From the NCBI GenBank assembly GCA_002323775.1, contig DCPV01000190.1, positions 10,445 through 36,453 on the forward strand: a DNA stretch of 26,009 nt, read 5' to 3'. Shown here one piece after another: positions 4,094 to 26,009 of the stretch. The notes beneath the pieces were generated by a model that worked only from the letters and a program-made list of their open reading frames with translations, ran no database searches and was not told where the DNA came from. The position numbers were made by a program, and so were the translations under genes. Position 1 is the stretch's first letter. Each line of letters starts with the position of its first letter. The stretch is from Firmicutes bacterium UBA1535 (GTDB lineage Bacteria > Bacillota > Clostridia > Tissierellales > Sedimentibacteraceae).

Positions 4094-4114
4094 TAATAAT
4101 CCTCCTAACTAGTA

Positions 4115-6231: not shown

Positions 6232-6241
6232 GTAAATATTA

Positions 6242-8009: not shown

Positions 8010-8142
8010 AGCAAATCCTCCAAAAATTAGCACGTAATTTGTAGTTTGTATAATTATTGTTTTGGGTATAAATACTAATATAAAGTATCCATAAATATTT
8101 TTTCCAAATTAGGAGAAAAGTATATTACATTTATTAAAAGTA

Positions 8143-8276: not shown

Positions 8277-8327
8277 ACATAATGTATAGTGAATAATAGA
8301 AATATAAATAAGCTTATGGAGGTAAAA

Positions 8328-10385: not shown

Positions 10386-10386
10386 T

Positions 10387-10845
10387 ATGAGTGAAAATAA
10401 TGTAATGATTCAAAAAGATTCAGGAATAGAAAAATATTTGTCTTTTTATTCAGCAGATGTTGAATATGCAGTAAATATCAAATATGTTACAGATATTATA
10501 AACCTATTGCCTATAACATTTTTACCAAAAATACCAAAATATATAAAAGGTATAGTAAACCTAAGAGGTAAGATAGTACCAGTAATTGATATAAGAATGA
10601 GATTTGGCAAGGAAAGCATTGATTATACAGAAACAGCCTGCATTATCGTTATGGAGTATTCCGATATTACAGTAGGAATATTGGTTGATGCAGTAGCAGA
10701 GGTGGCAGATATAGAAACAGCAAGTATTATGACACCACCTAAAGGAAGTTCTAATGAAATCAACAGATTTGTAAACGGAATTTCTAAGAAAAACAACAAA
10801 GTAAAATTATTGATAAACAGCATGAGCTTGTTTGAGGTTGAATAA
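10387..10845 (+). CDS. cheW: chemotaxis coupling protein CheW
   Basis: A 152-residue protein consisting of a single CheW domain. It bridges chemoreceptor tips and the P5 domain of CheA in the array. Typical features are KYVTDIINLLPITFLPKIPKYIKGIVNLRGKIVPVIDIRMRFG (described by position: residues about 29-72, with the IVNLRG core) and the C-terminal VGILVDAVAEVADI. The ATG at 10387 is one base after the cheA stop, and its GGAGG lies inside the last codons of cheA, so translation is coupled. Confidence 0.96.
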   Translation: MSENNVMIQKDSGIEKYLSFYSADVEYAVNIKYVTDIINLLPITFLPKIPKYIKGIVNLRGKIVPVIDIRMRFGKESIDYTETACIIVMEYSDITVGILVDAVAEVADIETASIMTPPKGSSNEINRFVNGISKKNNKVKLLINSMSLFEVE

Positions 10846-10899
10846 TTTGGAAAGTTTAAACAAGTTAAGCGAGATTAAAGCTGTCAGGAGGATAAGCAT

Positions 10900-11709: not shown

Positions 11710-11727
11710 TGCAAAAGAATTGCTATG

Positions 11728-11760
11728 TGACACTAATCTAAAAAAATTAGATTAGTGTCA
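11728..11760. other. perfect 14-bp hairpin without U-tract between cheR and cheB
   Basis: TGACACTAATCTAA (11728-11741) pairs exactly with TTAGATTAGTGTCA (11747-11760) around a 5-A loop. The bases after it are AACGATAA, so it is not a standard intrinsic terminator on the plus strand, and the minus strand has no T-tract either. It could be an mRNA stability or processing element, a partial attenuator, or a protein-binding palindrome. Confidence 0.7.
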
Positions 11761-11799
11761 AACGATAATTATTACTGAAAAAGAAGGGAAGATAATATA

Positions 11800-12903
11800 A
11801 TGAGTTCACGAAAAATAAAAGTGCTGATAATTGATGATTCATTATTATTTAGAAATGTATTGAAGCAGGAACTTTCCAAAGATCCACATATAGACGTTGT
11901 CGGCATGGCAGTTGATCCTATAGATGCAGAAGATAAGATAAAAGTTTTAAAACCAGACATAATTACTTTAGATGTTGAGATGCCTAGAATGAATGGTATC
12001 ACATTCCTAAAGAAGCTAATGAGAGAAAATCCAATAAAGGTCGTATTGGTAAGCTCATTGAATATAAGCGTTTTTGATGCCTTAGATGCTGGAGCTGTAG
12101 ACTTTGTTAAAAAGCCTGATATGAGCAGTAAAAACGAGTTGACTAATTTCTATTTTGAACTAAGCGGCAAGATAAAAATTGCTCATATAGCCAAGTTGAA
12201 AATTAAAGCAACTGAAAGCTCTAGTGCAGGTATAGGTTTAGCTAGCTCAACTTCTGCTTCAAGCACTGCTGCTCAAACTACTACTGAAAAAACACCAACG
12301 CTTACTAATCTTAATCTTGGCTTTCTTTCTCCACAGCAGGTCATAGCAATAGGAGCATCAACTGGTGGGACAGAAGCAACGCTTGAGATACTGAAAAAAT
12401 TGCCTAAGGAGGTGCCTGGGATTTTAGTTACTCAGCATATGCCTCCGGGATTTACTAAAATGTATGCTGACAGATTAAACAAATTATGTCAGATGGAAGT
12501 AAGAGAGGCAGTAAATGGAGACAGACTAACGGCAGGACTTGCTTTAGTAGCCCCTGGAGATAAGCAAATGCGTCTAGTTAAGGATGCAAAGGGCTATTTT
12601 GTACGTTGCTTAGGTGAAGAAAAGGTGAGTGGTCACTGCCCGTCAGTGGATGTACTATTTGAATCAGTATCGAAAGTAGCAGGAGCAAATGCTATAGGTA
12701 TAATCCTAACAGGTATGGGCAAGGACGGAGCAGACGGACTTCTAAAGATGAGGACATCAGGAGCTTATACCATAGGACAGGATCAAGCAAGCTGTGTCGT
12801 TTACGGTATGCCAAAGGTAGCTTATGATATAGGAGGAGTACAAATTCAAAGCCCTATAACAGAAATAGCAAATATTTTAATAAAACAACTAAATAAAAAA
12901 TAA
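11800..12903 (+). CDS. cheB: chemotaxis response-regulator methylesterase/deamidase CheB
   Basis: A 367-residue protein that removes methyl groups from, and deamidates, chemoreceptors once phosphorylated by CheA. The receiver domain (5-105) has the acidic pair D12/D13, phospho-acceptor D58 in TLDVEMPRMNG, and K104 in DFVKKPD. A Ser/Thr/Ala-rich linker spans about 138-166. The methylesterase domain (about 178-365) has the catalytic triad S187 (IGASTGGT), H213 (TQHMPPGF) and D309 (GMGKDGADG). All key residues are present. The start is preceded by AAGGGAAG. A strong hairpin separates it from cheR, so its expression may differ from that of the first three che genes. Confidence 0.97.
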   Translation: MSSRKIKVLIIDDSLLFRNVLKQELSKDPHIDVVGMAVDPIDAEDKIKVLKPDIITLDVEMPRMNGITFLKKLMRENPIKVVLVSSLNISVFDALDAGAVDFVKKPDMSSKNELTNFYFELSGKIKIAHIAKLKIKATESSSAGIGLASSTSASSTAAQTTTEKTPTLTNLNLGFLSPQQVIAIGASTGGTEATLEILKKLPKEVPGILVTQHMPPGFTKMYADRLNKLCQMEVREAVNGDRLTAGLALVAPGDKQMRLVKDAKGYFVRCLGEEKVSGHCPSVDVLFESVSKVAGANAIGIILTGMGKDGADGLLKMRTSGAYTIGQDQASCVVYGMPKVAYDIGGVQIQSPITEIANILIKQLNKK

Positions 12904-12904
12904 A

Positions 12905-12948
12905 TTGTGACGATATATATAGTAAGCGATGATATTATATCATCACAA
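12905..12948. other. inverted repeat after cheB, no U-tract
   Basis: TTGTGACGATATA (12905-12917) and TATATCATCACAA (12936-12948) pair over 13 positions with one mismatch. An alternative inner hairpin is GATGATA/TATCATC. What follows is TAAAATATTG, not a T-run. It lies 2 bases past the cheB stop and may be an atypical end-of-message structure or a processing site. Confidence 0.5.
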
Positions 12949-13099
12949 TAAAATATTGATACTAATTTTTGATAGCTTGATTGCATAGAATTTTACTTTA
13001 CGAATAAAAAGAAAAAATATAAATTAGTATAAAATAAAAATTTAAAGTGTTTTACATATATATTTCGAAAAGGCACTCAGTAACGAAAGGAGAAAAATT

Positions 13100-15367
13100 A
13101 TGTCAACAACATCAAGTATTTATGGTTCGGGTGTAAGCTCAAAGCGTGTAAATGGACTTATGTCAGGGCTAGATACAGACGAACTAGTAAAACAAATGTC
13201 ATACGCAACTCAGACAAAAATAAATAAACAGTTTCAAGCACAGCAAAAGCTTGTTTATAAGCAGGACGCATTTAGAGACGTTATATCTAAATTGGTTAAA
13301 TTCAGCGATAAATATTTTTCGGCAACTTCAAAGACTAACATATTAAGTCCAAGCTTTTTTAGAGCAAATACCGCTAAATCTTCATCAAGCAATGTAACGG
13401 TTTCTGGAGATACGGAAGCTTTAAAGAATTTCTCAATAGATGATGTTATAAGTGTTGCATCTACTGCTAGATTTACTTCTAATAAAGAAGTATCCAGTGG
13501 AGTAATAACAAGTGGTGATATTGATTCTACTAGCAAATTCAACGCATTAGCAGGGCAGGCTATAACTCTTAAAAGTGGAGAAAAGACGTATACATTAAAA
13601 ATTGATGCAAATTTTGAGTTTAAAGATAGCGATCCACTTAAATCTGAGCTGGAACAAATTCAAGATGAACTTAATAGACAGATAAATAGCATAACAGCGC
13701 TTAAAAATGCTGGAGTTGAATACTCAATTGATGCTGGTAAATTAAAACTTAATCCTGGAACATTTGGTGAAGGAGTTTTAAAAGTATCATCTGTAGGGGA
13801 TGAAATAAAAGAACGTTTAAATATCGAGGTAGATTCAGGAGGTTCTTCTGGTGAAGTTATAGATACATCAGCAGTAGCTTTTCTAAAAGATGTAAACTTA
13901 AAAGATATTTTAGCAAAAGGCCAAATGACTTTCGACTACAATGGTATCCAGAAAACTATAAGCTTTCCAGATGCAGCATCTCCTGAAGCAATAAATACAG
14001 CTGAGAAATTTAAGATATATTTACAAGGCAAGCTGGACACTATGTATGGTTCAGGAAAGATACAAGTTGGAACAGATGATAACAAATTAACATTCGAAAC
14101 AACAGGAACAAACAATTTGTTTGGAATATCATCAATGAGTCAAGATATAAGCAAATATACCGGATTATCAGTTGGAAATTACAATCGTGTAAATAAAGAT
14201 TTAGCCATATCTAAGGCTGGTCTGAAAGATTCGTTAAATTCAACAGAGACAAATGCAGACGGAAAAAAATTATATGAAATAACTATTAATGATACGAAAT
14301 TTTCGTTTACAGAAGATTCAACACTGAATGATATAATAAAAGAAATAAATTCTTCTGATGCAGGCATAACTCTTACACATTCTGCAACAACGGATAAATT
14401 TACAGCTGTTTCAAAAGATACCGGAGCACATATGGACATTGTAATTTCTGATGATGTAGGAAATCTTGCTAATGTGCTTTTCGGACAAAAGGATGTTGCG
14501 GGTGGATATTCCGTAGAAAAAGGAACAGATACGGTTGTAAAAGTTACTAAAAATGGTGTAGAAGAAACCTTGACACGTAGTACAAGCAATATTAGCTTTG
14601 ATGGCATTAATATAGGTCTTACAAATAAGGCTGTAGGCGAAAAAAACATCACCTTTACTGTAAGTGAAGAAACTGATAAAGTTGTTGAAAAGATGGCTCA
14701 GTTCGTTGAAGATTATAATGAAATTGTAACATACTTAGATGCAAAACTCAGTGAAAAATCGAATAGCAAATATCCGCCTCTTACAGACGAGCAAAGAAGA
14801 GAAATGTCTGAAAGTGAAATAAAGCTTTGGGATGAAAAAGCAAAAGAAGGTATGTTGTATCTTGACTCTGATATGAATGCCTTGCTATACTCTTGGAAAG
14901 AGTCAGTATCAGGCTTTGTAGAAGGCAATAGCATGCACATGTCGAGCATAGGTATAGCATCAGCATTTGGAGATTATTCTGGTAAATTGGTCTTTAATGA
15001 AGAAAAATTTAGAAATGCTTATGCAACAGATGCTGAAAAAATTGAAGAACTCTTTACAAAAAATTCTAAAAATGCAACGACAGAGCAAAAAGGCTTAGCC
15101 CAAAGGTTAAAAGATGTTACTTCAAGAAATGTAGGAGTAGTGGGTGAAAAGGGAATTCTTGTTGAGAGAGCAGGAACTAAAGGCACTTCAAGCGAAAAAG
15201 CTAACTTCTTATATGAAAGAATAAAAGAATATGATGATATGATTGCAAAGCTAAAAACTAAATTGGTAGCTGAACAGCAAAAATATTATGCGAAATTTAC
15301 CGCATTAGAAAAAGCACTTGCTAATATGAACAGTCAAAGTTCATGGTTAAGTTCCCAATTTCAGTAA
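13100..15367 (+). CDS. fliD: flagellar filament cap protein FliD (HAP2), enlarged
   Basis: A 755-residue protein; it caps the growing filament and folds exported flagellin subunits at the tip. The N-terminal FliD_N domain (about 10-115) is clear: VNGLMSGLDTDELVKQMS followed by a coiled-coil segment to KFSDKYFS. The C-terminal FliD_C domain (about 480-750) ends in a long helix and SSWLSSQFQ. Between them lie about 350 residues of beta-rich, Thr/Ser/Asp-rich sequence that is longer than in typical FliD proteins of about 450-550 residues; these outer D2/D3-like domains are surface-exposed and usually variable. The ATG follows AGGAG by 7 bases. No convincing SigD promoter is seen in the 196-base gap upstream. 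It leads the fliD-fliS-fliT-like group. Confidence 0.95.
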   Translation: MSTTSSIYGSGVSSKRVNGLMSGLDTDELVKQMSYATQTKINKQFQAQQKLVYKQDAFRDVISKLVKFSDKYFSATSKTNILSPSFFRANTAKSSSSNVTVSGDTEALKNFSIDDVISVASTARFTSNKEVSSGVITSGDIDSTSKFNALAGQAITLKSGEKTYTLKIDANFEFKDSDPLKSELEQIQDELNRQINSITALKNAGVEYSIDAGKLKLNPGTFGEGVLKVSSVGDEIKERLNIEVDSGGSSGEVIDTSAVAFLKDVNLKDILAKGQMTFDYNGIQKTISFPDAASPEAINTAEKFKIYLQGKLDTMYGSGKIQVGTDDNKLTFETTGTNNLFGISSMSQDISKYTGLSVGNYNRVNKDLAISKAGLKDSLNSTETNADGKKLYEITINDTKFSFTEDSTLNDIIKEINSSDAGITLTHSATTDKFTAVSKDTGAHMDIVISDDVGNLANVLFGQKDVAGGYSVEKGTDTVVKVTKNGVEETLTRSTSNISFDGINIGLTNKAVGEKNITFTVSEETDKVVEKMAQFVEDYNEIVTYLDAKLSEKSNSKYPPLTDEQRREMSESEIKLWDEKAKEGMLYLDSDMNALLYSWKESVSGFVEGNSMHMSSIGIASAFGDYSGKLVFNEEKFRNAYATDAEKIEELFTKNSKNATTEQKGLAQRLKDVTSRNVGVVGEKGILVERAGTKGTSSEKANFLYERIKEYDDMIAKLKTKLVAEQQKYYAKFTALEKALANMNSQSSWLSSQFQ

Positions 15368-15395
15368 AATGCTTTTCTAATACAAACTAGTGTAA

Positions 15396-15426
15396 AATCA
15401 GTTGGAGTATAATACTCCAACTGATT
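15396..15426. other. perfect 14-bp hairpin between fliD and fliS
   Basis: AATCAGTTGGAGTA (15396-15409) pairs exactly with TACTCCAACTGATT (15413-15426) around a 3-base loop. The following bases are AAAAATCAATTTTTC, so the nearest T-run starts about 8 bases later. It is at best a weak terminator. It would leave fliS expression partly separate from fliD. Confidence 0.65.
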
Positions 15427-15459
15427 AAAAATCAATTTTTCTTAGAATGAGGTAAACAA

Positions 15460-15834
15460 ATGATTGATCCTTACAAAAATTATAAAAATATCTCTATCAA
15501 CACCATGTCAAAAGGAGAGTTATTAGTCTTGCTCTTTGACAAACTTGTACAGAGACTGACCTTAGCAACTATTCTAAACAAGGATAATAAGATAGACGAA
15601 GCTAATATAAATCTGAACAAGTCAAGAGAAATATTTAATTATCTGCTTATAAGTCTTGACAATAATTATAAATTATCAAAGGATTTATCTGAGCTATATG
15701 CCTTTTTTAACGCCCAAATCATTAAGGCCACTGCTAAAAGAGATATGGATTTAATAGAACAAATCTTGCCAATGATTAGAGAATTAAGAGATACATGGGT
15801 TGAGGCAGAAAAATTATCAAAGCTGAATAAGTAG
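15460..15834 (+). CDS. fliS: flagellin export chaperone FliS
   Basis: A 124-residue, all-helical protein. FliS binds the C-terminus of flagellin in the cytoplasm, keeps it unfolded and passes it to the export gate. The N-terminus reads MIDPYKNYKNISINTMSKGELLVLLFDKLVQRL, whose Tyr-x-x-Tyr-like start and E-L-x-x-L-L-F/Y-D-x-L core are the FliS signature. Length is normal. The start follows GAGGT by about 7 bases. Position directly downstream of fliD and upstream of flagellin is the usual gene order. Confidence 0.95.
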   Translation: MIDPYKNYKNISINTMSKGELLVLLFDKLVQRLTLATILNKDNKIDEANINLNKSREIFNYLLISLDNNYKLSKDLSELYAFFNAQIIKATAKRDMDLIEQILPMIRELRDTWVEAEKLSKLNK

Positions 15835-15842
15835 GTGGCAGA

Positions 15843-16277
15843 GTGATAGACTTATTAAATACTAAGCTTGAACTAATAAAAAAAATTGAAGAATTAACTT
15901 TTAATATATTAGAAATTCCATTAGAGGATGAAGAATTTGAGAATTCATTAAATAAGTACAATGAATTGATAGACAAAAGGCAAAATTTAATGAATGAGAT
16001 AGATGATATTGATTATAAGATTAATAGCATAGATTTGCAACTGATTAGCTTTAATAGTGATTTTACAAAATCTAAAGATTTATTAGAAACTAATATAAAA
16101 TTTATTTTAAAAAACATAATAGATATGGATAAGAAAATCAAGCTTAATACTGAAAAAGAACTTATACTGACCAAGAGAAAAATAAATGAGGCAGAGCAAA
16201 GACTTCAAACTTCTGACTTTGAACTTAATAAAGAAGATAAAAAGCCAATAGGATATTACTTAAATAAAAAAAGTTAA
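15843..16277 (+). CDS. FliT-like flagellar chaperone or coiled-coil protein
   Basis: A 144-residue protein, nearly all helical, rich in Glu, Lys, Ile and Asn, with heptad-like stretches throughout. It starts at GTG 15843, eight bases after the fliS stop, with AGGTGG just upstream; the next in-frame ATG is near residue 50 and would lose the first helix. I see no diagnostic motif. The call rests on size, helical content and position right after fliS, where FliT, the FliD chaperone, is normally found. DKRQNLMNEID near residues 43-53 resembles the FliT family segment with Glu/Asp-x-R-x-x-L. If correct, it binds FliD in the cytoplasm before export. It could instead be an unrelated small flagellar protein. 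Confidence 0.6.
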   Translation: MIDLLNTKLELIKKIEELTFNILEIPLEDEEFENSLNKYNELIDKRQNLMNEIDDIDYKINSIDLQLISFNSDFTKSKDLLETNIKFILKNIIDMDKKIKLNTEKELILTKRKINEAEQRLQTSDFELNKEDKKPIGYYLNKKS

Positions 16278-16283
16278 ATTGAC

Positions 16284-16326
16284 AGGACAATATGTTAGAT
16301 TAAGATTCTAAGTATTGTTCTTTTTT
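16284..16326 (+). terminator. intrinsic terminator after the fliT-like gene
   Basis: AGGACAATA (16284-16292) pairs with TATTGTTCT (16313-16321), including one G-U pair, and a six-T run follows directly. It separates the fliD-fliS-fliT-like message from the flagellin gene. Confidence 0.75.
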
Positions 16327-16380
16327 ATAGACAGAGCAGTAGAAAAGGTGGTATTTTTCAAAGGAAAGATTGGAGAAGAT

Positions 16381-16476
16381 ATGAACAGAAATATTTTTTA
16401 TAAAAAAATATTAAAAATTTTTAAAAATTTGCTAAACTTTTACAAACTTCGACCGATATATATATTAAGCGAGTAA
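16381..16476 (+). CDS. possible 31-residue cationic peptide overlapping the flagellin promoter
   Basis: An ATG at 16381 has GGAG exactly 5 bases upstream and opens a 31-codon frame ending at TAA 16474-16476. The product is Lys-, Ile-, Phe- and Leu-rich (NIFYKKILKIFKNLLNFYKL) and could form an amphipathic cationic helix. It overlaps the whole flagellin SigD promoter, and only about 50 bases separate it from the upstream terminator, so it would rely on readthrough. Its AT-rich composition makes a chance frame plausible. Confidence 0.25.
   Translation: MNRNIFYKKILKIFKNLLNFYKLRPIYILSE
16433..16459 (+). promoter_or_regulatory. SigD (sigma-28) promoter of the flagellin gene
   Basis: TAAA at 16433-16436 and CCGATAT at 16453-16459 with a 16-base spacer match the flagellar sigma-28 consensus and the cheA promoter in this window. 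A long A/T stretch (about 16391-16430) precedes it and could act as an UP element for this highly expressed gene. The expected start is near 16466, giving a leader of about 100 bases. Confidence 0.92.
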
Positions 16477-16486
16477 AATTGCTAAG

Positions 16487-16557
16487 AATTGTGTGGCAGG
16501 CGCCGCTACATAATTAAAATATATGGGAATGAATCCCGATTAAAAAATACATGGAGG
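16487..16557 (+). promoter_or_regulatory. structured 5' leader of flagellin mRNA, possible CsrA target
   Basis: An 11-bp hairpin (AATTGTGTGGC 16487-16497 with GCTACATAATT 16505-16515, two G-U pairs, loop AGGCGCC) is followed by a small one (GGGA 16525-16528 with TCCC 16534-16537). The ribosome site region ACATGGAGGT (16549-16558) matches 8 of 10 positions of the CsrA consensus RUACARGGAUGU core. In Bacillus, CsrA represses flagellin translation at such a site and FliW relieves it (known system). Neither csrA nor fliW is in this window, so control by them is inference. Confidence 0.5.
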
Positions 16558-16564
16558 TATTAAA

Positions 16565-17383
16565 ATGAGAATACAACATAACGTTAACGCATTAAATTCA
16601 CACAGAAATTTAACAATGAACACAGCTTCTATAGGTAAAAACTTAGAGAAATTATCATCAGGATACAAAATAAACAGAGCTGCTGATGATGCTGCAGGTT
16701 TAGCTATATCAGAAAAAATGAGAGCACAAATCAATGGTTTAGAGCAAGCTCAATCAAACGCTCAAGACGGTATATCATTGATTCAAACAGCAGAAGGTGC
16801 TTTAAATGAAACTCATGCTATATTACAAAGAATGAGAACATTGGCTGTACAAGCTTCAAACGGAACATATCAATCAGACGTTGACCGTGAGAACATTGAT
16901 GAAGAGTTAAATGCTTTAAAGAGCGAAATAGACAGAATAGCTAGTTCAACTCACTACAATAAGAATGACCTACTTAACGGTAGCTTAACTATTACATTCC
17001 AAATTGGAGCAAACGGAGTTGCAGATCAACAAGTAACATTAGGAGTATCAAGCCAAAATGCTTCTGCATTAGGAGTTAGTGCTGTTGGTGTTAGTACAGT
17101 TGCAAGTGCAAATTCTGCTATAAGTTCAATAGATGCAGCAATAAACAGTGTATCAAAAACACGTTCTAAATTGGGAGCTCTTCAAAACAGATTAGAGCAC
17201 ACAATCAATAACTTGGGAGTAGCTTCTGAAAACTTAACAGCTGCTGAATCAAGAATAAGAGACGTTGACATGGCTAAAGAGATGATGACATTCACTAAGA
17301 ATAACATCCTTACTCAAGCTTCTCAAGCAATGCTTGCACAAGCTAACATGCAACCACAAGGCGTATTACAATTATTACAATAA
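16565..17383 (+). CDS. flagellin, major filament protein
   Basis: A 272-residue flagellin. The N-terminal D0/D1 region (about 1-140) begins [16 protein letters not shown] and contains [29 protein letters not shown]. The C-terminal D1/D0 region (about 190-272) has [34 protein letters not shown] and a [10 protein letters not shown] end. The central variable domain is very short (about 140-190) and Ser/Ala/Gly/Val-rich, so this is a minimal flagellin. Its exposed Ser and Thr residues are the expected sites for O-glycosylation by the enzymes encoded nearby. GGAGG lies 7 bases before the ATG. Frequent Gln, Asn and Ala codons and the strong SigD promoter fit high expression. It is monocistronic, ended by a strong terminator. 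The symbol hag or fliC is used for such genes; which is locally used cannot be told. Confidence 0.98.
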
Positions 17384-17398: not shown

Positions 17399-17427
17399 TA
17401 AAAAAGCGAGGTCACCTCGCTTTTTTT
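17399..17427 (+). terminator. strong intrinsic terminator of flagellin
   Basis: A GC-rich stem GCGAGGT (17406-17412) pairs with ACCTCGC (17414-17420; the central bases form the loop), with AAAAA before and TTTTTTT after. The A-run also makes it usable from the minus strand. Confidence 0.93.
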
Positions 17428-17480: not shown

Positions 17481-17519
17481 AATAAAAAAATAAATGAGTG
17501 TGCCAATATGCAGGCACAC
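17481..17519 (-). terminator. intrinsic terminator of the convergent glycosyltransferase gene
   Basis: Read on the minus strand, GTGTGCC and GGCACAC (plus-strand positions 17513-17519 and 17498-17504) form a 7-bp stem with an 8-base loop, followed by an interrupted T-tract (complement of 17481-17494). It lies just past the stop of the glycosyltransferase gene. Confidence 0.75.
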
Positions 17520-17525
17520 CCATCA

Positions 17526-19643
17526 CTAATTAATTGTTTTTTCTAATTCTTGAATTTCAATATCATTTGGATTTAGTGTTTTATATTCAGCTAATATGAG
17601 TTTAGCGTCATTGAAATTATTTTTATTAATTAGCTCTTTAATATTGTTCTTTATTGTAATAGCCAGAATTTCAAATTCAGATAACTCATTTGGAATATTG
17701 TTTTCTTCATTCTCTTCTAAACTTTCAGTTAATATCGAGATGAGATTTTTCATCGAATTATTTGCTGATAGTGCTTTTCTAAGCAGTTTTATATAATTGA
17801 GCTTAGAATTATTTGCTAAAGCTTCATTTGCTTTCATACAATAATAACCAAACTGAATGTTTTTAGGAACTAAATCTATATTTTCATCATTAAGGATGTT
17901 TTCATTATATGTATTTATTAGATAGATTTCGAAGTTTTTGAGATATTTTTTAAATGAATTTATAATTATTTCCTTATCATCAGCATCATTTAAAGTAATT
18001 GATACCTCATATATAGATTTTAACAAATATGCTTCGTACGGATTGTTAGATTCGTAAGTATATGATGAAATTGTATCTAAAAAGTCATCATACTGCCTGT
18101 TTATTACATCAAAGCAAGCTAACAGACAATCAAAATCTAATTTGCTTTTAAATAATTTTAATGGCATATTATATTTTAAAACATAATAAACAATATCAAA
18201 ATAATGAATGTCAAATTTTTCAATTTCATTTAAAAATTCAGTTATTTGAGCTTTTACATCGTTACTTTTATCTTCATATACTTGTCTTATTTTCATATAA
18301 GTTATGTATGGGCTCTTTGATTTTATATCAAGCTTAGAAAGTAAGGATATAATTTTATGCTTTTCTTCAATGCGCTCATTTATGAAAGATTCAATGGATT
18401 TTTGTAAATTAGATTCAAATTCTTCATTTCTGTCAAGTTCAACTGTGTACAAATACTTGAGATCATCATAGTTGTTTTGAATTCTCATCACTTCTAAATA
18501 AAGTTTAAATAAAAAGTCTTGGCTCATTTTAAATTCACAGCTAAAAGCTAACATTTTTTTTATCAGTTCTTTAGCCTCTTCGCATCTTTCAAGTTTGAAA
18601 TATGAATTTATAACATTTAGAGAAGCTAAATATAGCGAAAAATTATCGGCACAAATTAATGCTCTGTTATAAGCTTCACGTGTTGTGTGCTTCCCATCTG
18701 CATACTTATCAAAATGCTCTTTATATTTTATATAAGTTTCTACGCATTCTGCATATTTATTTAAAGAGTTGAATGCAAACAGCATATAATAATATACATC
18801 GGTATCCGATGCTAATATATCTGACTTGGATTTAAAATACAAATCAGCTTCATTTAAAACTTCCCAATGCTTATTCAAACCTGCATATGTTGCCATTAGA
18901 TTAATAGATAGTGCGCAGTACATATTGTTATTGCCTTCTTTTATAGCAAGCTCTTTACCTATTTTATAATGTTTTAATGCTTCTTCTCTGTTTTTTAGTG
19001 TATCACGCATAGTGTATGATTCGCCAAGTTCTTTTCTTAACTTTGGATTATTAGGCATTGTTTCTAATTGTTTTAGTAACAAATCAATATTTCTTTTATG
19101 CTTAGCTTTCGCTTGTTTTTCACTAGCAAGTATATAACCATAATGATTAAATTTTGTCTTTGTCAAATTTTTTACAGGCAAAATAAAGGGTATTTGTTCA
19201 TGAACAATACCTATGAACCTTGTTTCCTTTGTCAATTTTCTCATTCTAGGGATTAAAACAGATGAGCTTGAATTTCTCTCTTTATTTTTATAGTTCACAA
19301 TATAATAACTTGCTGACATGTATTTTTTATATTTTTTTGATTTGAAAAATTCAATTATTTCATTTGAATTCTCAAGTATTTCATCGGCGTCAATAAACAT
19401 ATACCATTCACCTTTAGCATAGTCTATAGTAACATTTCTTGCTGCCGCAAAATCATTGCACCATTCAAAGTAATATACCTTATCAGTGTATCTCTTCGCT
19501 ATCTCAACGGTTTTGTCTGTTGAACCTGTATCAACTATAATTAATTCGCTTTTTATATTCTCTAAAATAGGTTTTAGGGCTGTTAAGCATTCATCTAAAT
19601 ACTTTTCTTCATTTTTCACTATCATTCCTATAGAAAGTATCAT
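17526..19643 (-). CDS. GT2 glycosyltransferase with long helical (TPR-like) tail, probable flagellin glycosyltransferase
   Basis: A 705-residue protein. Residues 1-100 and beyond form a GT-A family 2 domain: LSIGMIVKNEEKYLDECL, IIVDTGSTDKTVEIAK and the metal-binding FIDADE (D85-x-D87). WCNDFAAARN at 61-70 is typical of the SunS/TPR-type GT2 subgroup. From about residue 230 to the end it is helical with TPR-like repeats, often used to hold a protein acceptor. GGGAGG lies 5 bases before the ATG, and a good SigA-type promoter lies at 19701-19729. It is convergent with flagellin, the location of the flagellin glycosyltransferase in Clostridioides difficile and other clostridia. It may attach the first sugar to flagellin Ser/Thr using a nucleotide sugar. 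The acceptor is inferred from context only. Confidence 0.82.
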   Translation of the reverse strand: MILSIGMIVKNEEKYLDECLTALKPILENIKSELIIVDTGSTDKTVEIAKRYTDKVYYFEWCNDFAAARNVTIDYAKGEWYMFIDADEILENSNEIIEFFKSKKYKKYMSASYYIVNYKNKERNSSSSVLIPRMRKLTKETRFIGIVHEQIPFILPVKNLTKTKFNHYGYILASEKQAKAKHKRNIDLLLKQLETMPNNPKLRKELGESYTMRDTLKNREEALKHYKIGKELAIKEGNNNMYCALSINLMATYAGLNKHWEVLNEADLYFKSKSDILASDTDVYYYMLFAFNSLNKYAECVETYIKYKEHFDKYADGKHTTREAYNRALICADNFSLYLASLNVINSYFKLERCEEAKELIKKMLAFSCEFKMSQDFLFKLYLEVMRIQNNYDDLKYLYTVELDRNEEFESNLQKSIESFINERIEEKHKIISLLSKLDIKSKSPYITYMKIRQVYEDKSNDVKAQITEFLNEIEKFDIHYFDIVYYVLKYNMPLKLFKSKLDFDCLLACFDVINRQYDDFLDTISSYTYESNNPYEAYLLKSIYEVSITLNDADDKEIIINSFKKYLKNFEIYLINTYNENILNDENIDLVPKNIQFGYYCMKANEALANNSKLNYIKLLRKALSANNSMKNLISILTESLEENEENNIPNELSEFEILAITIKNNIKELINKNNFNDAKLILAEYKTLNPNDIEIQELEKTIN

Positions 19644-19693
19644 AGTATCCTCCCAAAATATATAAAATTATTCTTTCTTTAATCTACAAAATA

Positions 19694-19702
19694 TGCTATA
19701 AT
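19694..19702 (+). promoter_or_regulatory. extended -10 promoter of the glycan operon
   Basis: TGCTATAAT is a perfect extended -10 (TG-N-TATAAT), about 80 bases before the ATG of the FkbM-glycosyltransferase gene. The -35 region is T-rich but poor. It overlaps the -10 of the divergent promoter by two bases. Confidence 0.5.
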
Positions 19703-19729
19703 TATACTATAAATATACGTAAACATCAA
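19701..19729 (-). promoter_or_regulatory. SigA-type promoter of the TPR-glycosyltransferase gene
   Basis: On the minus strand TTGATG (19729-19724) and TATAAT (19706-19701) are spaced by exactly 17 bases, a good SigA match. It faces away from the glycan operon, and its -10 overlaps the plus-strand -10, so the two promoters probably exclude or co-regulate each other. Confidence 0.65.
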
Positions 19730-19782
19730 TATAAGAAAGTGAAATTTATACAAAATATGATATAAGTTAGGAGTGATTAAAT

Positions 19783-21822
19783 ATGTACTTTGAAATGTTA
19801 CTTAATTCCTTAAATACATTTGAGCAATTAGTCGAATTAATTAATTCAAATAGCATAGATGAAATCGTTAATTGTGTTGCACAAGAGACTGATATACCTT
19901 TGGAGGAGCTTCTTAATCTGCCAATGGGAGGATATTCTAAGGGTAAAAAAAGTGGAGCATATTATTATGTTATGATTGATTTAAAGAAGAACATTAATCA
20001 ATACATATGGTTATATAATAATTTGTGCGATGAACGTTCAAGAGATGTATTATTAAATCTTTTAAGATATAGGATACTTCCTAGTACTAAATATTTAGGT
20101 TTAGCTTATGATGATATTCCGCAATATTTTGATGCTGATATAGTAAAGTGCAGTGATGATGAAGTCTTTGTAGATTGTGGAGGTTTTACTGGTGATACGG
20201 CAGAAAGCTTTATTAATAATTTTGGTAAATATAAAAAGATTTATATTTATGAGCCTTCGCCAGAGAATGTCAAAACATGTGTAGAAAATACAAAGAATTA
20301 TAGCAATATAGAAGTTAGGCAATTTGGAGTCGGTGATAAAATAGAAAAACTGAAATTTTCCAAATCTGGTTCGGCAAGCAGTGTCGTTAATAATTCGGCA
20401 GAAGAATATGATGAGATAAATATTACAACATTAGACAAGGATATTGAAGAAAAAGTTAGTTTTATAAAAATGGATATAGAGGGCTCTGAAATACAAGGAA
20501 TAATAGGGGCTAAAAATCATATAAAAAATGATACGCCTAAACTTGCGATATGTGTATATCATATCGTCTCAGATATATGGGAAATACCTAAGCTGATATA
20601 TGCGATAAATAAGAATTATAAATTTTATATAAGACATTATGAAAAAAGTGTAAATTGGGAAACAGTTATTTATGCTATTCCAAAAGATGATAATATACAT
20701 ATTAAGAGAACAAAAGATATAAATGGGGTATATGCTATTTCGGGGATACATGGAAACTGGTGCAACGATCAGCTTACAAAGGATTGTGGAATAATACCAT
20801 ATTTATTGCATAAAAGACACGGGTATGATTGCTATATGGTCGGTGAAAAAAATGGAGACTATCCATTTTTAGAGACTTATGTAAAAGGCTTAAAGATGAA
20901 GTTTATAGACAGCTGTGATCCTAATAACTTGTGCAATTATATAATAAATAACTATAAAGACATTGATGTATTAGTTCTTTATGGATTATATTTTACTTTT
21001 GTCGAAAGTTCCATTTTGTATAAAAAACTTAGACCAGATGGAAAAATTATATTGAATTTAGATGCAAGTTCACATTGGATGGATAGAGTTTTATTCAATT
21101 CCGATTGGTGTACTGGATTATTAAATAGTTGTGATATTATAGCAACATCATGCAAAAAATTGCAAAGACATCTAAATATTAAATGGCCATGTTGGAATAT
21201 AGAGTATATGCCAAACGGGTTTTATAATTTTGCCAATTTAGATATTGATGTTGAATATAATAAAAAAGAAAACACTATTATTACTGTTGGAAGAATAGGT
21301 ACTGACCAAAAGGCAAATCATGTACTTATGGAGACCTTTGCTTTGTTGTCAAAAAGGTTAAATGATTGGAAATTAAAACTAATTGGCAAGGTTGAAGATA
21401 GTTTTAAACCATACATAGAAGAATATTTCACTAAATATCCTCAACTAGTGGATAAAGTTATATTTACTGGATTTATAGCTGATAAGACAGTTTTGATGAA
21501 TGAATATAGAAAGGCTAAAATTTTTGCTTTAACATCTATATTTGAAGGCTCACCTAATGTTGCTGCGGAAGCTCAGATAAATGGATGCTATATGGTAACA
21601 AGCAATATTGACGCTTCAAATGATATAACTAATAATGAAAAATGCGGCAAGATATTTTCGATTGGTGATGTTGAAAAACTATATGAAATTTTGTTGGAAG
21701 CATGTACAAATGAAGAGGAGTTAAAGACTGCATCGTATAATGCTATAGAATACGCAAAAACTTTTCTTGATTGGGATCAAAATATAGATAGATTGAATTA
21801 CATGCTAAAAGAAGAAGTATAA
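19783..21822 (+). CDS. FkbM-family methyltransferase fused to GT4-type glycosyltransferase
   Basis: A 679-residue two-enzyme protein. Residues 1-110 are helical and not recognised. Residues about 125-305 form an FkbM SAM-dependent O-methyltransferase: VFVDCGGFTGDTAESF (D131, G133, G134), YEPSPEN with E157 binding the SAM ribose, and FIKMDIEGSE (229-236). Residues about 315-679 form a GT-B glycosyltransferase: ISGIHGNW near 320, TIITVGRIGTDQKANH as the donor-domain start, and FEGSPNVAAEA (E588-x7-E596), the nucleotide-sugar binding motif of family GT4. Such a protein would transfer a sugar and methylate it or its neighbour. AGGAG lies 8 bases before the ATG. It leads an operon of methyltransferases and glycosyltransferases next to flagellin, so a role in flagellar or surface glycan synthesis is likely. 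Confidence 0.85.
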   Translation: MYFEMLLNSLNTFEQLVELINSNSIDEIVNCVAQETDIPLEELLNLPMGGYSKGKKSGAYYYVMIDLKKNINQYIWLYNNLCDERSRDVLLNLLRYRILPSTKYLGLAYDDIPQYFDADIVKCSDDEVFVDCGGFTGDTAESFINNFGKYKKIYIYEPSPENVKTCVENTKNYSNIEVRQFGVGDKIEKLKFSKSGSASSVVNNSAEEYDEINITTLDKDIEEKVSFIKMDIEGSEIQGIIGAKNHIKNDTPKLAICVYHIVSDIWEIPKLIYAINKNYKFYIRHYEKSVNWETVIYAIPKDDNIHIKRTKDINGVYAISGIHGNWCNDQLTKDCGIIPYLLHKRHGYDCYMVGEKNGDYPFLETYVKGLKMKFIDSCDPNNLCNYIINNYKDIDVLVLYGLYFTFVESSILYKKLRPDGKIILNLDASSHWMDRVLFNSDWCTGLLNSCDIIATSCKKLQRHLNIKWPCWNIEYMPNGFYNFANLDIDVEYNKKENTIITVGRIGTDQKANHVLMETFALLSKRLNDWKLKLIGKVEDSFKPYIEEYFTKYPQLVDKVIFTGFIADKTVLMNEYRKAKIFALTSIFEGSPNVAAEAQINGCYMVTSNIDASNDITNNEKCGKIFSIGDVEKLYEILLEACTNEEELKTASYNAIEYAKTFLDWDQNIDRLNYMLKEEV

Positions 21823-21838
21823 ATTAGGAGAAGATAAT

Positions 21839-22879
21839 ATGGGATATTTAAATGCAGCTGAAAATAAAATTTATTTTATTTCTGACAATGGTGAAAAAGT
21901 ACTTTTATTAGACTTGTTGGATTTTTTATCTAATCGAAGCAATGTTCCTTTGCATTTTATTGGAGATAATAAATCGTACGAAATAATTCCAGATATAATA
22001 ACAAATCTTATAAGTGAATATAATGAGGTCAAAGGTGGTAATGGTGACCCTACTGATAGCTCAATGATGCTGCTTGTGGCGATAATGATTATAAAGAGAT
22101 TCATGTATAGATCTAAAAAAAGCAACATATTAGAAATTGGATGTACAGATGGAACTTTAAGCTATTTAATAGGTTTATTGATGAAATATTTTGAAAAAAT
22201 TAATTTGCATTGTGTATCTGATGTTATTAGTAGCGATAGTCAATCTGATTGGTTGAATAAAATAATGAAATTAGATAATGCTGATAACATTTCTATTACC
22301 TATGCTAATTATGACAATATCAATTTAAAAGACTCATTCTATGATATAACAATTATAAATAGCAATGATTACTTTGAAGATCCTGAAAATTTAATAAGAA
22401 ATTGTATAGATTTAACTAAAAAAGGTGGAATGTTATTGTGCATCGGAAAACATCAACCACTTCTTTGCAGTACATTCCAGGCTATAATTGATGATTGTGA
22501 TACATATGAATTTAATGTTGATAATATAATATTTACAAAATTACTAGATGATAGAGACAAAATAGAGGGATTATCTATCTCAAATAAAAATAAACTTGGA
22601 GAAATCAAAGCAAGTTTTATTGGGTTAGAAAGTAAAGTTAATAAAATAGAGTGTTTAGATATTGATAATTTAGATAATATTATTTCTATTGTTAGTGAAC
22701 TTCAAAAACAGGTACTAGAGATTTATGATAGTATGGACAATATTGATATAAAATTTGAGCTATCTGAACTTAAAGAAGTATTAATAAACTATAGAGTAGC
22801 AAAAAGTACAAGAGAGAAAGATTTTAATATATACTTAGATATTTGCAAGGAAAAATATTATAATGTTAAAATGATATGA
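21839..22879 (+). CDS. class I SAM-dependent methyltransferase with coiled-coil C-terminus
   Basis: A 346-residue protein. Residues about 80-205 form a Rossmann methyltransferase: ILEIGCTDGTLSYLIG at about 97-112 is motif I, YDITIINSNDYFEDPENLI is motif II/III, and KKGGMLLCIGKH follows. Residues 1-80 are a helical lead and residues about 240-346 are a helical, Glu/Lys/Ile-rich segment, probably coiled coil. The substrate cannot be told from sequence; by position in the glycan operon it may methylate a sugar hydroxyl or amine. AGGAG lies 8 bases before the ATG, and the gap to the upstream gene is only 16 bases, so it is co-transcribed. Confidence 0.8.
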   Translation: MGYLNAAENKIYFISDNGEKVLLLDLLDFLSNRSNVPLHFIGDNKSYEIIPDIITNLISEYNEVKGGNGDPTDSSMMLLVAIMIIKRFMYRSKKSNILEIGCTDGTLSYLIGLLMKYFEKINLHCVSDVISSDSQSDWLNKIMKLDNADNISITYANYDNINLKDSFYDITIINSNDYFEDPENLIRNCIDLTKKGGMLLCIGKHQPLLCSTFQAIIDDCDTYEFNVDNIIFTKLLDDRDKIEGLSISNKNKLGEIKASFIGLESKVNKIECLDIDNLDNIISIVSELQKQVLEIYDSMDNIDIKFELSELKEVLINYRVAKSTREKDFNIYLDICKEKYYNVKMI

Positions 22880-22934
22880 TGAAGTCATATGTAACAATGT
22901 AATTATTATTAGAATTTAATACTTGGAGAACAAT

Positions 22935-24455
22935 ATGAGAATAGAAACTAATGAAAATGAAATTTTTATTGATATGGGAGATTTTGAGAGGCCTGAACCT
23001 AAAGAAAATGTTAGAAAAAATAGGATGAGTTATTATAATAATATTTATGAATCTAACGAAATAAATATAGGGATATTTGTTTTAGGATATAATAGAGTAG
23101 ATAAAACTAAAGAATGTATAGAAAGTATATTGAAGTATACAAGTGATATAAAATATGAATTGATATTAATAGATAATAATTCTACCGACGATACATATGA
23201 ATATTTTAAGTCTGTTTCTTATGAGCATAAAAAAATAGTAAGATTAAGCAAGAATACAGGATTTGCATTTGTTTCACAGTTATATACTTCTGTATTTAAG
23301 GGTAAATACTATGTAATAGTTACTAATGATGTCATTGTAACACAAAACTGGCTATCAAATCTGATGAAATGTATAGAATCTGATGATTCTATAGGTATGG
23401 TTTCTCCAAAATCATCTAATGTTAGTAATCTACAGCAAGTAAGTTTAAATTTTAATAATCTTGACGAAATGCAAGCGGAAGCTAAAAAATTTAATATAAG
23501 TAATCCTCTAAAATGGGAGGAGAGAATTAGGCTTATTAATATAGTATCTGTTGTAAAAAAAGAGGTATTTGATTTAGTGGGTTTTACTGATATTGGTTTT
23601 TTTCATGATTTTAGCGAAGATGATTATTCTTTAAGAGTTAGGCGTGCTGGTTACAAGTTGATTTTATGCGGAGATACCTTTGTTCACCATAATCATGATT
23701 ATTGGAACATGGAAAACAAAGATCCTGTTGAGTTTAACAAATCTTTAACGTCTGGAAGAAATAATTTTAAGGAGAAGTATTTTGATATTGATGCGTGGGA
23801 CGATGTGCTTAATTTTGAAACTTTACCATTTAATATAGATACAATACCGTTGCAGGCTATTCCGAAAATTCTCGCAATTGATGTCAGATGCGGGACTCCT
23901 ATATTACAACTTAGAAATTTGTTAAGAGAAAATAATTTATTATACTCTGAGTGTCACGCATTTACATCTAATGCAAAATACTACAACGATTTATTGTACG
24001 TGACTAATGGGAAAGTAAAATGTGATCGAATAGATTATTTGACGGAACATTATTCAATAAATAGTTTTGATTTTATAATTTTAGGAGAGGTTATAAATGA
24101 TTACGCAAAGCCTATACAACTTTTACAAGAGCTTTTGCAATTTCTTAAACCAAATGGACAATTATTGATGAAGCTTCAAAATATTTTTGATTTTAAGATG
24201 CTTTTGCATATGATGGGACAAGCACAAGATGTTGACAGCAATATGCCTATTGTTATTTCAATAGAAAGTATTTTATCTTGTTTAGAGCTTATGAAAGTGA
24301 AAAATGTGAAATTGTCAGCTACTCAATATAACATGGATGAAAATTATATCAAATTTTTTGAGGATGTTGTTAGAAATACAAATCTCACTGAGTTAGTCGG
24401 TGAGACAGCAAAAGGATTAACTATAAAAGAATATGTGATTTGTATTACCAAATAG
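22935..24455 (+). CDS. GT2 glycosyltransferase fused to a methyltransferase-like domain
   Basis: A 506-residue protein. ATG 22935 is preferred because GGAG lies 6 bases upstream; an in-frame TTG at 22923 would overlap that site. After a 40-residue acidic lead, residues about 44-290 form a GT2 domain of the rhamnosyltransferase-like type: NIGIFVLGYNRVDKTKECIES, LILIDNNSTDDTY, VTNDVIV as the metal-site segment, and FSEDDYSLRVRRAGYKL as the ED-x-Y catalytic region. Residues about 305-500 look like a SAM methyltransferase (ILAIDVRCGTPILQLR, then FDFIILGEVINDYAKPIQLL and LKPNGQLLMKLQN), with a degenerate glycine loop, so activity is uncertain. It is the second glycosyltransferase-methyltransferase fusion in the operon, in reverse domain order to the first. 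Confidence 0.82.
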   Translation: MRIETNENEIFIDMGDFERPEPKENVRKNRMSYYNNIYESNEINIGIFVLGYNRVDKTKECIESILKYTSDIKYELILIDNNSTDDTYEYFKSVSYEHKKIVRLSKNTGFAFVSQLYTSVFKGKYYVIVTNDVIVTQNWLSNLMKCIESDDSIGMVSPKSSNVSNLQQVSLNFNNLDEMQAEAKKFNISNPLKWEERIRLINIVSVVKKEVFDLVGFTDIGFFHDFSEDDYSLRVRRAGYKLILCGDTFVHHNHDYWNMENKDPVEFNKSLTSGRNNFKEKYFDIDAWDDVLNFETLPFNIDTIPLQAIPKILAIDVRCGTPILQLRNLLRENNLLYSECHAFTSNAKYYNDLLYVTNGKVKCDRIDYLTEHYSINSFDFIILGEVINDYAKPIQLLQELLQFLKPNGQLLMKLQNIFDFKMLLHMMGQAQDVDSNMPIVISIESILSCLELMKVKNVKLSATQYNMDENYIKFFEDVVRNTNLTELVGETAKGLTIKEYVICITK

Positions 24456-24484
24456 ATTATATTTTTATTAGGAGGAGATAACTA

Positions 24485-25873
24485 ATGAGTAATACAGTTT
24501 TTTCTATAGTAAAAAGTTGGGCAACAAAAGAAGGAAATGTAAATGGAAAAAGTGACATATTAAAATGGATAGAAAATTTAAATAGTACTGTAAAGGTGAG
24601 TATTATAAAAAATAAGCTGGAAGATAGCGAATACTGGTATTATGAAAAAGATGAGGGCTCAATAGTAAATAAGAATAGAAGTTTTTTTAGTATAAGAGGA
24701 TTGCAAAAAAAAGATGCTTGTAAAATTATTGATGAACATCCTATAATAATTCAAAATGAAATTGGATATTTGGGTTTAATATGCAAAGAAATAGATGGAG
24801 TCATAAACTTTTTGATGCAGGCAAAAATTGAGCCGGGAAATATTAATAAAATTCAAATTTCACCTACTATCCAAGCCACAAAAAGTAATTTTACTCAAAA
24901 ACATGGTGGAAATAAACCATTATATTTTGATTATTTTATAGATGCTTCAAGTTATGAGGTAGTTGTTGACCAAATACAATCAGAGCAGTCTTCAAGGTTT
25001 TATAAAAAGAGAAATCGTAATATAATAATCAGAGTTGATGATGATATAGAAGTTTTACCAAATTATAAATGGATGACATTAGGACAAATAAAAGAATTAA
25101 TGAAAATTGATAATTTAGTCAACATGGATACAAGAACGGTGATATCATGTATCCCATTTAGCAATAATACTATTTCCATAGATGAAATTGAAGAATTAGA
25201 AAAATTATTTGATGATAAAGAACTATTTAAATCTATATTTTATGGAGAACAAAGAAATGTGCTACCCACTATATACCAGTACATTAATAATTATAAAATG
25301 TTTGATGAGAGCAATATAAAGTTAGTTGACATTTATTCTTTGAATGATTGGTATATGAAAGATGGGGAATATATTTGTAAAAATAATTATCCATTTAAAA
25401 TAGTATTTTGTGATATAGAAATCGAAGGACGAGAAGTAAGGAATTGGACACAGCCTTTATTTGAAGCTACTGGCATATCAACCTTTGGATTAATCATGTA
25501 TAATGATAATGGCATAAAAAAATTTATTATTAAAGCCGTAAGTGAAAATGGATGTTTTGATAAAATTGAATTAGGGCCAAGCGTCCAAAATGAAGCTGGA
25601 CATGAAATTAAGTTTAATGAAATAGATAAGTTATTTTATAGTAATTTGGAAAATAATAGACATATAGTATATGATTGTTTGCTTTCAGAAGAAGGCGGAA
25701 GATTTTATCACGAACAAAATAGGAATGTAATAATGCAAATACCAAAAACAGATTTGATTAATTTACCTACTGGATATTTTGCTGTTGACTATAAAACTTT
25801 AAATAATTTAGTTCAAATAAATAACTGTTTAAATATTCAGCTTAGAAATTTATTATCATTATTGGAGGCTTAA
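24485..25873 (+). CDS. NDP-hexose 2,3-dehydratase (EvaA/TylX3-type)
   Basis: A 462-residue enzyme. It removes water across C2-C3 of NDP-4-keto-6-deoxyglucose, the committing step to 2,6-dideoxysugars. The hallmark segment is clear: AKIEPGNINKIQISPTIQ (113-130) and ATKSNFTQKHGG (131-142). The protein is an internal duplication, as in the family: EQSSRFYKKRNRN (167-179) recurs as EEGGRFYHEQNRN (402-414), an offset of 235 residues, and the SPTIQ segment recurs as GPSVQ in the second half. Length is normal for the family. AGGAGG lies 9 bases before the ATG. The family is best known from macrolide and glycopeptide antibiotic clusters. Here the neighbours are flagellin and glycan genes, so a deoxysugar on the flagellar or surface glycan is the expected product. 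The sugar nucleotide supply genes are not in the window. Confidence 0.93.
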   Translation: MSNTVFSIVKSWATKEGNVNGKSDILKWIENLNSTVKVSIIKNKLEDSEYWYYEKDEGSIVNKNRSFFSIRGLQKKDACKIIDEHPIIIQNEIGYLGLICKEIDGVINFLMQAKIEPGNINKIQISPTIQATKSNFTQKHGGNKPLYFDYFIDASSYEVVVDQIQSEQSSRFYKKRNRNIIIRVDDDIEVLPNYKWMTLGQIKELMKIDNLVNMDTRTVISCIPFSNNTISIDEIEELEKLFDDKELFKSIFYGEQRNVLPTIYQYINNYKMFDESNIKLVDIYSLNDWYMKDGEYICKNNYPFKIVFCDIEIEGREVRNWTQPLFEATGISTFGLIMYNDNGIKKFIIKAVSENGCFDKIELGPSVQNEAGHEIKFNEIDKLFYSNLENNRHIVYDCLLSEEGGRFYHEQNRNVIMQIPKTDLINLPTGYFAVDYKTLNNLVQINNCLNIQLRNLLSLLEA

Positions 25874-25874
25874 T

Positions 25875-26009
25875 GTGACGAAAATTAGATTAGGAATAGT
25901 CGGAACCGCGGAAATTGCTTTTAGAAGATTTTTACCAGCATTAATTAAAAATGATAATTTTGAATATATAGGAGTTGCTTCAAGAGATATAGAAAAAACT
26001 AAAAAATTT
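25875..26009 (+). CDS. Gfo/Idh/MocA oxidoreductase, probable NDP-hexose 3-ketoreductase, N-terminal part
   Basis: The first 45 residues of a gene that runs out of the window. It starts at GTG 25875, one base after the dehydratase stop, with GGAGG in the last dehydratase codons at a 6-base spacing. The N-terminus (MTKIRLGIVGTAEIAFRRFL, then PALIKNDNFEYIGVASRDIEKTK) is a Rossmann NAD(P)-binding fold of the Gfo/Idh/MocA family. The A-E/D-I-A-x-R-R-x-L-P-A stretch resembles sugar 3-ketoreductases such as KijD10, which reduce the unstable 3,4-diketo product of 2,3-dehydratases. This fits its coupling to the preceding gene. With only 45 residues the catalytic Lys-Pro motif cannot be checked. Confidence 0.8.
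   Translation, partial: MTKIRLGIVGTAEIAFRRFLPALIKNDNFEYIGVASRDIEKTKKF

Follow-up and report, generated by a model that had tools for sequence, protein, structure and literature searches.

RESULTS

A putative deoxysugar gene pair at the end of a glycosyltransferase run beside fliC

The window, by which we mean the whole 26,009-nt stretch analyzed here, contains CheA-CheW-CheR-CheB-FliD-FliS-ORF-FliC in this order, followed by a GmaR-like GT2 glycosyltransferase gene on the opposite strand and by genes for an FkbM-GT4 fusion, a methyltransferase-like protein, a GT2 protein with a methyltransferase match (GT2-MT), a 2,3-dehydratase, and a Gfo/Idh oxidoreductase. Within the window, glycosyltransferase and sugar genes adjoin the flagellin gene in a flagellar cluster, as in a flagellin glycosylation island. 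The features considered below are as follows (the 195 aligned dehydratase sequences include that of the window):

8289–16277, forward strand: CheA-CheW-CheR-CheB-FliD-FliS and one further ORF, ahead of fliC (Pfam); partly syntenic with genome G668
16565–17383, forward strand: flagellin FliC, 272 aa (PF00669 and PF00700)
17400–17426, forward strand: terminator-like hairpin 3′ of fliC (hairpin search)
17493–17524, reverse strand: terminator-like hairpin 3′ of the GmaR-like gene (hairpin search)
17526–19643, reverse strand: GmaR/SunS-like GT2 glycosyltransferase whose C-terminal region is long, likely a flagellin transferase (best PDB match, GmaR)
19783–21822, forward strand: FkbM-type methyltransferase fused to a GT4 glycosyltransferase; opens the co-directional run that reaches the dehydratase gene
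21839–22879, forward strand: methyltransferase-like protein, 346 aa (weak matches, below curated cut-offs)
22923–24455, forward strand: GT2-MT, a GT2 glycosyltransferase whose C-terminal part weakly matches methyltransferases (PF00535, E = 1e-14; PF08241, E = 3e-4)
24485–25873, forward strand: predicted NDP-hexose 2,3-dehydratase, complete; 462-aa ORF with two tandem EvaA-like halves, AGGAGG upstream
24830–24832, forward strand: codon of E116, counterpart of EvaA E139 in pocket A (195 of 195 aligned sequences)
24860–24889, forward strand: SPTIQATKSN signature, residues 126–135 (identical in 185 of 195 aligned sequences)
24983–24985, forward strand: codon of E167, counterpart of EvaA E190 in pocket A (195 of 195 aligned sequences)
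25875–26009, forward strand: start of a Gfo/Idh/MocA oxidoreductase of the sugar 3-ketoreductase type; 45 codons, the window ending inside the gene

Beside the chemotaxis block lie genes for a 686-aa FtsA/PilM-like ATPase (4115–6175), long homologs of which are found in numerous genomes of Clostridia (the best-scoring matches are 42% identical), and for a 108-aa FlhB C-terminal-domain protein (6242–6568). An SLH-domain protein with a Big_2 domain (Pfam) is encoded at 1338–3455. The window CheB shares 71% identity with that of Sedimentibacter sp. zth1, its best match carrying a species name, and up to 88% with other matches.

The G+C content of the 17526–26009 part is 0.273, compared to 0.325 for 8289–17383 and 0.313 for 1–8033. 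The dehydratase was not detected at E = 1e-60 in any of the 67 genomes of the order of G190, a possible relative of the window organism (59% identity of CheB), nor in the order of G228 (0 of 58); elsewhere, the same query matched 3 of 225 and 8 of 391 genomes at E = 1e-100. The lower G+C content together with the absence of the dehydratase from the 67 genomes of a possibly related order suggests that the low-G+C part arrived horizontally. Low G+C content is also common in glycosyltransferase genes.

The dehydratase and its partner

The product of the 24485–25873 ORF matches Pfam PF03559 in two stretches (E = 2e-116). The sole distinct PDB sequence found for it at E = 0.001 was EvaA of chloroeremomycin biosynthesis (4j7g; E = 6.7e-74), which was also retrieved with the second half alone (E = 1.4e-22). 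The two halves align with each other (26% identity over 141 aa, E = 4e-14), which confirms that they arose by tandem duplication. By these matches, the ORF belongs to the PF03559/EvaA 2,3-dehydratase family, and the initial sequence-only reading, which had recognized a full-length 2,3-dehydratase with its signature and duplicated halves, is confirmed. The window enzyme resembles EvaA in its whole length, its two halves, and its pocket-A glutamates. The EvaA version of the signature is SPTVQATRSN. According to an excerpt of PMC8987622 (other papers are likewise cited from excerpts unless their text is named), pocket A is the active site of EvaA, and E139 and E190 are likely catalytic; both glutamates are present in the window dehydratase (E116 and E167). 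A protein 99% identical to the window dehydratase exists (P0002).

The Gfo/Idh gene starts with a GTG at 25875, one base past the TAA codon of the dehydratase gene and just downstream of a GGAGG sequence. The first PDB matches of its 45 visible residues were the sugar 3-ketoreductase entries 3rc7 and 3rbv (E = 1e-4); we take the 3rbv-series enzyme to be KijD10. The same residues are up to 69% identical to Gfo/Idh neighbors of related dehydratases, and a full-length member of this Gfo/Idh cluster, L001, matches 3rbv with E = 9e-65. The top PDB match is thus shared by the window fragment, which shows the N terminus only, and a full-length relative. The proposed resemblance to KijD10-type 3-ketoreductases is seen over the 45 residues available. 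Taken together, the two families make deoxysugar chemistry, i.e., dehydration followed by 3-ketoreduction, very likely.

The glycosyltransferase run

From 19783 on, all genes through the Gfo/Idh gene lie on the same strand, separated by 16, 43, 29, and 1 bases; the 29-base gap between GT2-MT and the dehydratase gene was counted in favor of a flagellar role. Enzyme families and gene order support the earlier view of the pair as consecutive deoxysugar steps, co-directional with glycosyltransferases adjoining flagellin. The start of GT2-MT is uncertain (TTG at 22923, with an in-frame ATG at 22935), and its PF08241 match is just over the cut-off. In the window, 5 terminator-like sites were found, versus 2.1 in shuffled sequences. 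Since an opposite-strand gene and two terminator-like hairpins lie between them, fliC and the glycosyltransferase run are not one transcript.

The 705-aa GmaR-like protein matched GmaR (22ao, E = 3.1e-27) and next SunS (E = 6e-21) in PDB. The GmaR match is confined to the N-terminal 195 residues (the solved GmaR chain has 204 aa), and no TPR profile was found in the window protein at E = 0.01 (Pfam). GmaR is presumably the flagellin O-GlcNAc transferase of Listeria; SunS, which the protein also resembles, is a peptide S-glycosyltransferase. Five island proteins lack any segment above the hydropathy threshold of 1.6 (two come near, with 1.58 and 1.54), which fits cytoplasmic glycosylation without a flippase. 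No flippase, polymerase, or priming transferase was found in the window up to position 26009 by Pfam and hydropathy searches.

Relatives of the transferases in flagellin islands of other genomes

An island with flagellar genes on both flanks was seen only in G668, a genome chosen for its GT2-MT match and hence not an unbiased sample: when 67 genomes from its order were searched at E = 1e-35, no other had a GT2-MT relative. There, CheW, CheB, fliC, and a GmaR-like glycosyltransferase (31% identity over 729 residues) are followed further on by GT2-MT (50% over 459), RmlC-like, nucleotidyltransferase, two epimerase, FlhB-like, CheA, CheR, FliD, and FliS genes. No dehydratase was detected in G668 at E = 1e-60. 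In Clostridioides genome G307, the fliC island comprises fliC, a GmaR-like glycosyltransferase (29% over 740), GT4, GT4/GT2, a GT2 protein (39% over 441 to the window GT2-MT), an epimerase, an RmlC-like protein, a C-methyltransferase, a nucleotidyltransferase, and a radical-SAM protein; the GT2 protein has no methyltransferase match at E = 1e-5.

Of six genomes examined for their flagellin regions, three (G307, G217, and G668) have a GmaR-like relative directly downstream of fliC; the flagellin pieces from G001, G003, and G093 showed no such neighbor. The pieces of G001 and G217 span only part of the flagellar regions. GT2-MT relatives also lie beside FkbM, GT4, and radical-SAM genes in G354 and G409, with no fliC match in the 39 kb covered from each, and a 33% identical relative lies 8 kb from the dehydratase gene of G001. 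Relatives of the window transferases thus sit in flagellin islands together with other nucleotide-sugar genes, a place taken here by the 2,3-dehydratase and the predicted 3-ketoreductase. The suggested link of the pair to flagellin is thereby strengthened, both by the GmaR match in PDB and by the transferase relatives inside flagellar regions of two other genomes.

Two observations concern these islands themselves. A PF08484 methyltransferase gene (L114:6731–7876) lies beside the RmlC-like and epimerase genes downstream of fliC in G307, suggesting that a Clostridioides flagellin is decorated with a C-methylated sugar. Both flagellin islands and GT2-MT clusters contain several genes for radical-SAM/SPASM proteins, interspersed with glycosyltransferase genes (L126/L127 in G668, L103/L106 in G354 and G409, and L114:4701–5825).

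Relatives of the dehydratase in surface-glycan loci

Among the 80 loci listed, out of 187 confirmed in species genomes, the dehydratase ORF was called in 74, and Gfo/Idh was the next gene in 59 of these 74. Per 80 listed loci, the Gfo/Idh cluster was present in 72, RmlA in 50, RmlB in 44, NAD epimerase in 43, RmlC in 41, and UDP-galactopyranose mutase in 32, each cluster name resting on one representative. Of 136 upstream neighbors of related dehydratases, 112 were aligned and scanned (24 were left out by hand: those shorter than 120 aa and some that were truncated, on the reverse strand, or later in order); the commonest were GT2 proteins (18) and polysaccharide flippases (9), with no flagellar family among the 25 of 57 families listed. 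Searches with the flagellar and chemotaxis proteins of the window (E = 1e-5) yielded no match in any of the 80 listed loci, covered up to 10 kb per side; the same FliC query detects flagellins in eight of nine flagellin-region pieces. In five genomes with both a dehydratase and a flagellin (G001, G003, G093, G217, and G307), no FliC was found within roughly 20 to 40 kb of the dehydratase, and in four of them the two genes are on different contigs.

The sequence-only reading had called the pathway antibiotic-type, a label that is not borne out. Listed relatives of the window dehydratase are mostly Bacillota surface-glycan enzymes with 52 to 67% identity, whereas actinobacterial plasmid copies (40 of 85 records listed, all actinobacterial) are 27.6 to 35.5% identical. 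In a tree of 36 hand-picked sequences, EvaA not included, three actinobacterial copies stand apart from the 33 other sequences with a support of 100/100. EvaA, for its part, belongs to an antibiotic cluster, whereas the window enzyme is surrounded by flagellin and surface-glycan genes. In the three actinobacterial regions, the Gfo/Idh gene is directly adjacent in one, one gene away in another, and absent in the third; PKS or NRPS genes lie beside the dehydratase relative in two. By descent, as far as sequence comparison goes, the window dehydratase is a surface-glycan enzyme of a Bacillota branch, since its relatives occupy surface-glycan loci, none of the 80 listed is near flagellar genes, and flagellin lies apart in five genomes. 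Flagellar use is therefore argued from the present neighbors and not from the dehydratase family.

A related cassette is found in G307, whose dehydratase is 99.8% identical to P0007 of Clostridioides sp. ES-W-0016-02. It has the order dehydratase-Gfo-RmlC-epimerase-Glf-(130-aa ORF)-RmlA-RmlB-priming transferase and is flanked by SecA/CWB2 genes and by a CWB2/C1-peptidase gene, i.e., it lies in an S-layer–type locus. The CWB2/C1-peptidase gene is presumably Cwp84-like. In G307, 2.9 Mb of contig separate the flagellin and dehydratase genes; were the contig circular, the shorter way round would be 1.3 Mb. The locus (L107 1170 to L108 11694) also has glycosyltransferase genes and a gene for a Wzy-like protein. 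A 2,6-dideoxyhexose in a Clostridioides surface glycan is possible; it would be unlike the solved glycan of C. difficile S-layer cassette type 11, which contains no dideoxy sugar (PMC6254364) and whose description lacks the words “dideoxy” and “dehydratase” in its text.

These loci raise the possibility that the window pair opens a cell-surface polysaccharide or S-layer glycan cluster merely downstream of flagellin glycosylation genes, its sugar going to the wall or the S-layer. Related dehydratases adjoin GT2s, Polysacc_synt flippases, RmlA/B/C, and UDP-galactopyranose mutase; an ORF with at least eight hydrophobic segments is present in 51 of the 74 loci (among those listed); and the G307 cassette shows such a setting directly. 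The SLH protein at 1338–3455 points to S-layer–type surface proteins in the window organism, and the window stops inside the second gene of the pair, for which reasons we keep this explanation. Against it, GT2-MT lies immediately upstream of the dehydratase gene on the same strand and is related to proteins of the G307 and G668 flagellin islands, and the four complete genes from 19783 on do not appear to encode membrane proteins. We hold a wall or S-layer destination to be unlikely, though it is the main rival.

DISCUSSION

Our analysis suggests a pathway in which RmlA and RmlB, encoded outside the window, would supply dTDP-4-keto-6-deoxyglucose. The EvaA-type enzyme would dehydrate it at C2/C3, and the Gfo/Idh enzyme would reduce the resulting 3-ketone to yield dTDP-4-keto-2,6-dideoxyhexose, to be completed by an epimerase and/or a 4-ketoreductase, also encoded outside the window. 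In the cytoplasm, the GmaR-like enzyme would attach the first sugar to Ser/Thr residues of flagellin; the FkbM-GT4 and GT2-methyltransferase proteins would then lengthen the chain with the 2,6-dideoxyhexose and O-methylate it. The enzyme families, pocket-A residues, and gene order are read from the sequence, as are the flagellin-region relatives of two transferases, and on this footing the dTDP-4-keto-2,6-dideoxyhexose pathway is well supported. From the same data we infer the activity of the enzymes, the stereochemistry of the sugar, the transferase that would use it, and its presence on the filament.

We consider it likely that the locus represents the part of a flagellin glycosylation island where the sugar is made, providing a 2,6-dideoxyhexose for the flagellin chain. 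Flagellin as the destination, which rests on gene neighbors, is itself probable. Counted against it were the absence of flagellar genes from the listed dehydratase loci and the separation of dehydratase and flagellin in five genomes; the oppositely oriented gene and two hairpins between fliC and the glycosyltransferase run; the GT2-MT relatives without fliC in the DNA covered (G354 and G409) and the 33% relative in G001; the G307 GT2 relative without a methyltransferase match; the SunS resemblance of the GmaR-like protein; and the lack of a GmaR-like neighbor of fliC in the G001, G003, and G093 pieces.

A further explanation, overlapping with the preferred one in its flagellar destination, is that the diketo product ends up in an amino sugar or a sugar deoxygenated further, so that no plain 2,6-dideoxyhexose is made. 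Aminotransferase clusters 12 and 13 are found near related dehydratases (in eight loci each, among the loci listed), and Fuc3N occurs on C. difficile type B flagellin (PMC5207245). However, the gene that follows the dehydratase encodes a 3-ketoreductase-type Gfo/Idh, which would reduce away the 3-keto group that amination at C3 requires, with amination at C4 still possible; we judge such diversion rather improbable. A role for the pair in a secondary-metabolite (antibiotic) cluster is highly improbable and was rejected: two of the three actinobacterial regions do have relatives beside PKS or NRPS genes, but the listed actinobacterial copies are distant, the three placed in the tree form a separate, fully supported group, the largest window ORF has 755 aa, and no PKS/NRPS domain was found in the window proteins scanned.

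The closest template for the proposed flagellin glycosylation is the C. difficile type B locus. In its flagellin glycan, GT1 adds GlcNAc, and GT2 (PF00535 and PF08241) adds two rhamnoses, which it is proposed to methylate; the locus also has a gene similar to that of the dTDP-sugar aminotransferase FdtB (PMC5207246). Like the window, it combines GT2-type transferases beside fliC, a GT2-methyltransferase protein, and a dTDP-sugar gene (PMC5207246, PMC5207245). By analogy, the window GT2-MT, which matches the same Pfam families, PF08241 weakly, may act similarly. In contrast to the sugar proposed here, the type B sugars are GlcNAc, rhamnose, and Fuc3N, and the excerpts describe no 2,3-dehydratase (PMC5207246, PMC5207245). 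Clostridium islands also resemble the window in that flagellar genes enclose genes for GT2/TPR flagellin transferases and for dideoxyhexose synthesis; there, 3,6-dideoxyhexoses are predicted on the flagellins of C. sporogenes, C. thermosuccinogenes, and C. butyricum DSM 10702, which are products of a chemistry other than the 2,6-dideoxy one proposed for the window (PMC13317340). A protein-bound 2,6-dideoxyhexose, digitoxose, is carried by the S-layer O-glycan of Tannerella forsythia (PMC4030854, PMC6120980). This case is like the proposed one in that the sugar decorates a bacterial surface protein, but it involves an S-layer and not a flagellum, in another phylum. GmaR, the nearest PDB relative of the transferase adjoining fliC, is alike over the N-terminal part alone. 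Flagellin sugars known or predicted in the literature examined (in part, from excerpts) are nonulosonic acids, GlcNAc, rhamnose, Fuc3N/Fuc4N, glucose, and 3,6-dideoxyhexoses.

In open-licence PMC, where the comma-bearing enzyme name is not searchable, we found, among the papers listed, no report of a 2,3-dehydratase or a 2,6-dideoxyhexose on flagella, and flagellin and digitoxose occur together only in Tannerella papers. While flagellin glycosylation islands are known, what looks new here is an EvaA/KijD10-type pair plugged into one. The filament may therefore carry a sugar not reported, within open-licence PMC, on any flagellum. We lean, by a narrow balance, toward a broader view in which a transferable dTDP-2,6-dideoxyhexose module, composed of a 2,3-dehydratase and a 3-ketoreductase and often accompanied by an RmlC-type epimerase, a 4-ketoreductase, RmlA, and RmlB, serves three outputs in Bacillota: wall or capsule, the Clostridioides S-layer locus, and, in the window, a flagellin island whose filament would bear a possibly O-methylated 2,6-dideoxyhexose.

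Glycosylation of flagellin can influence how cells move, how the immune system recognizes them, and how phages adsorb. A 2,6-dideoxyhexose has a lower polarity and a greater acid lability. Such sugars are typical decorations of antibiotics; their presence on a filament, if true, would widen the list of flagellin sugars. It would also provide Bacillota enzymes for making dTDP-2,6-dideoxysugars and would mean that one sugar-making module is common to several surface-glycan systems.
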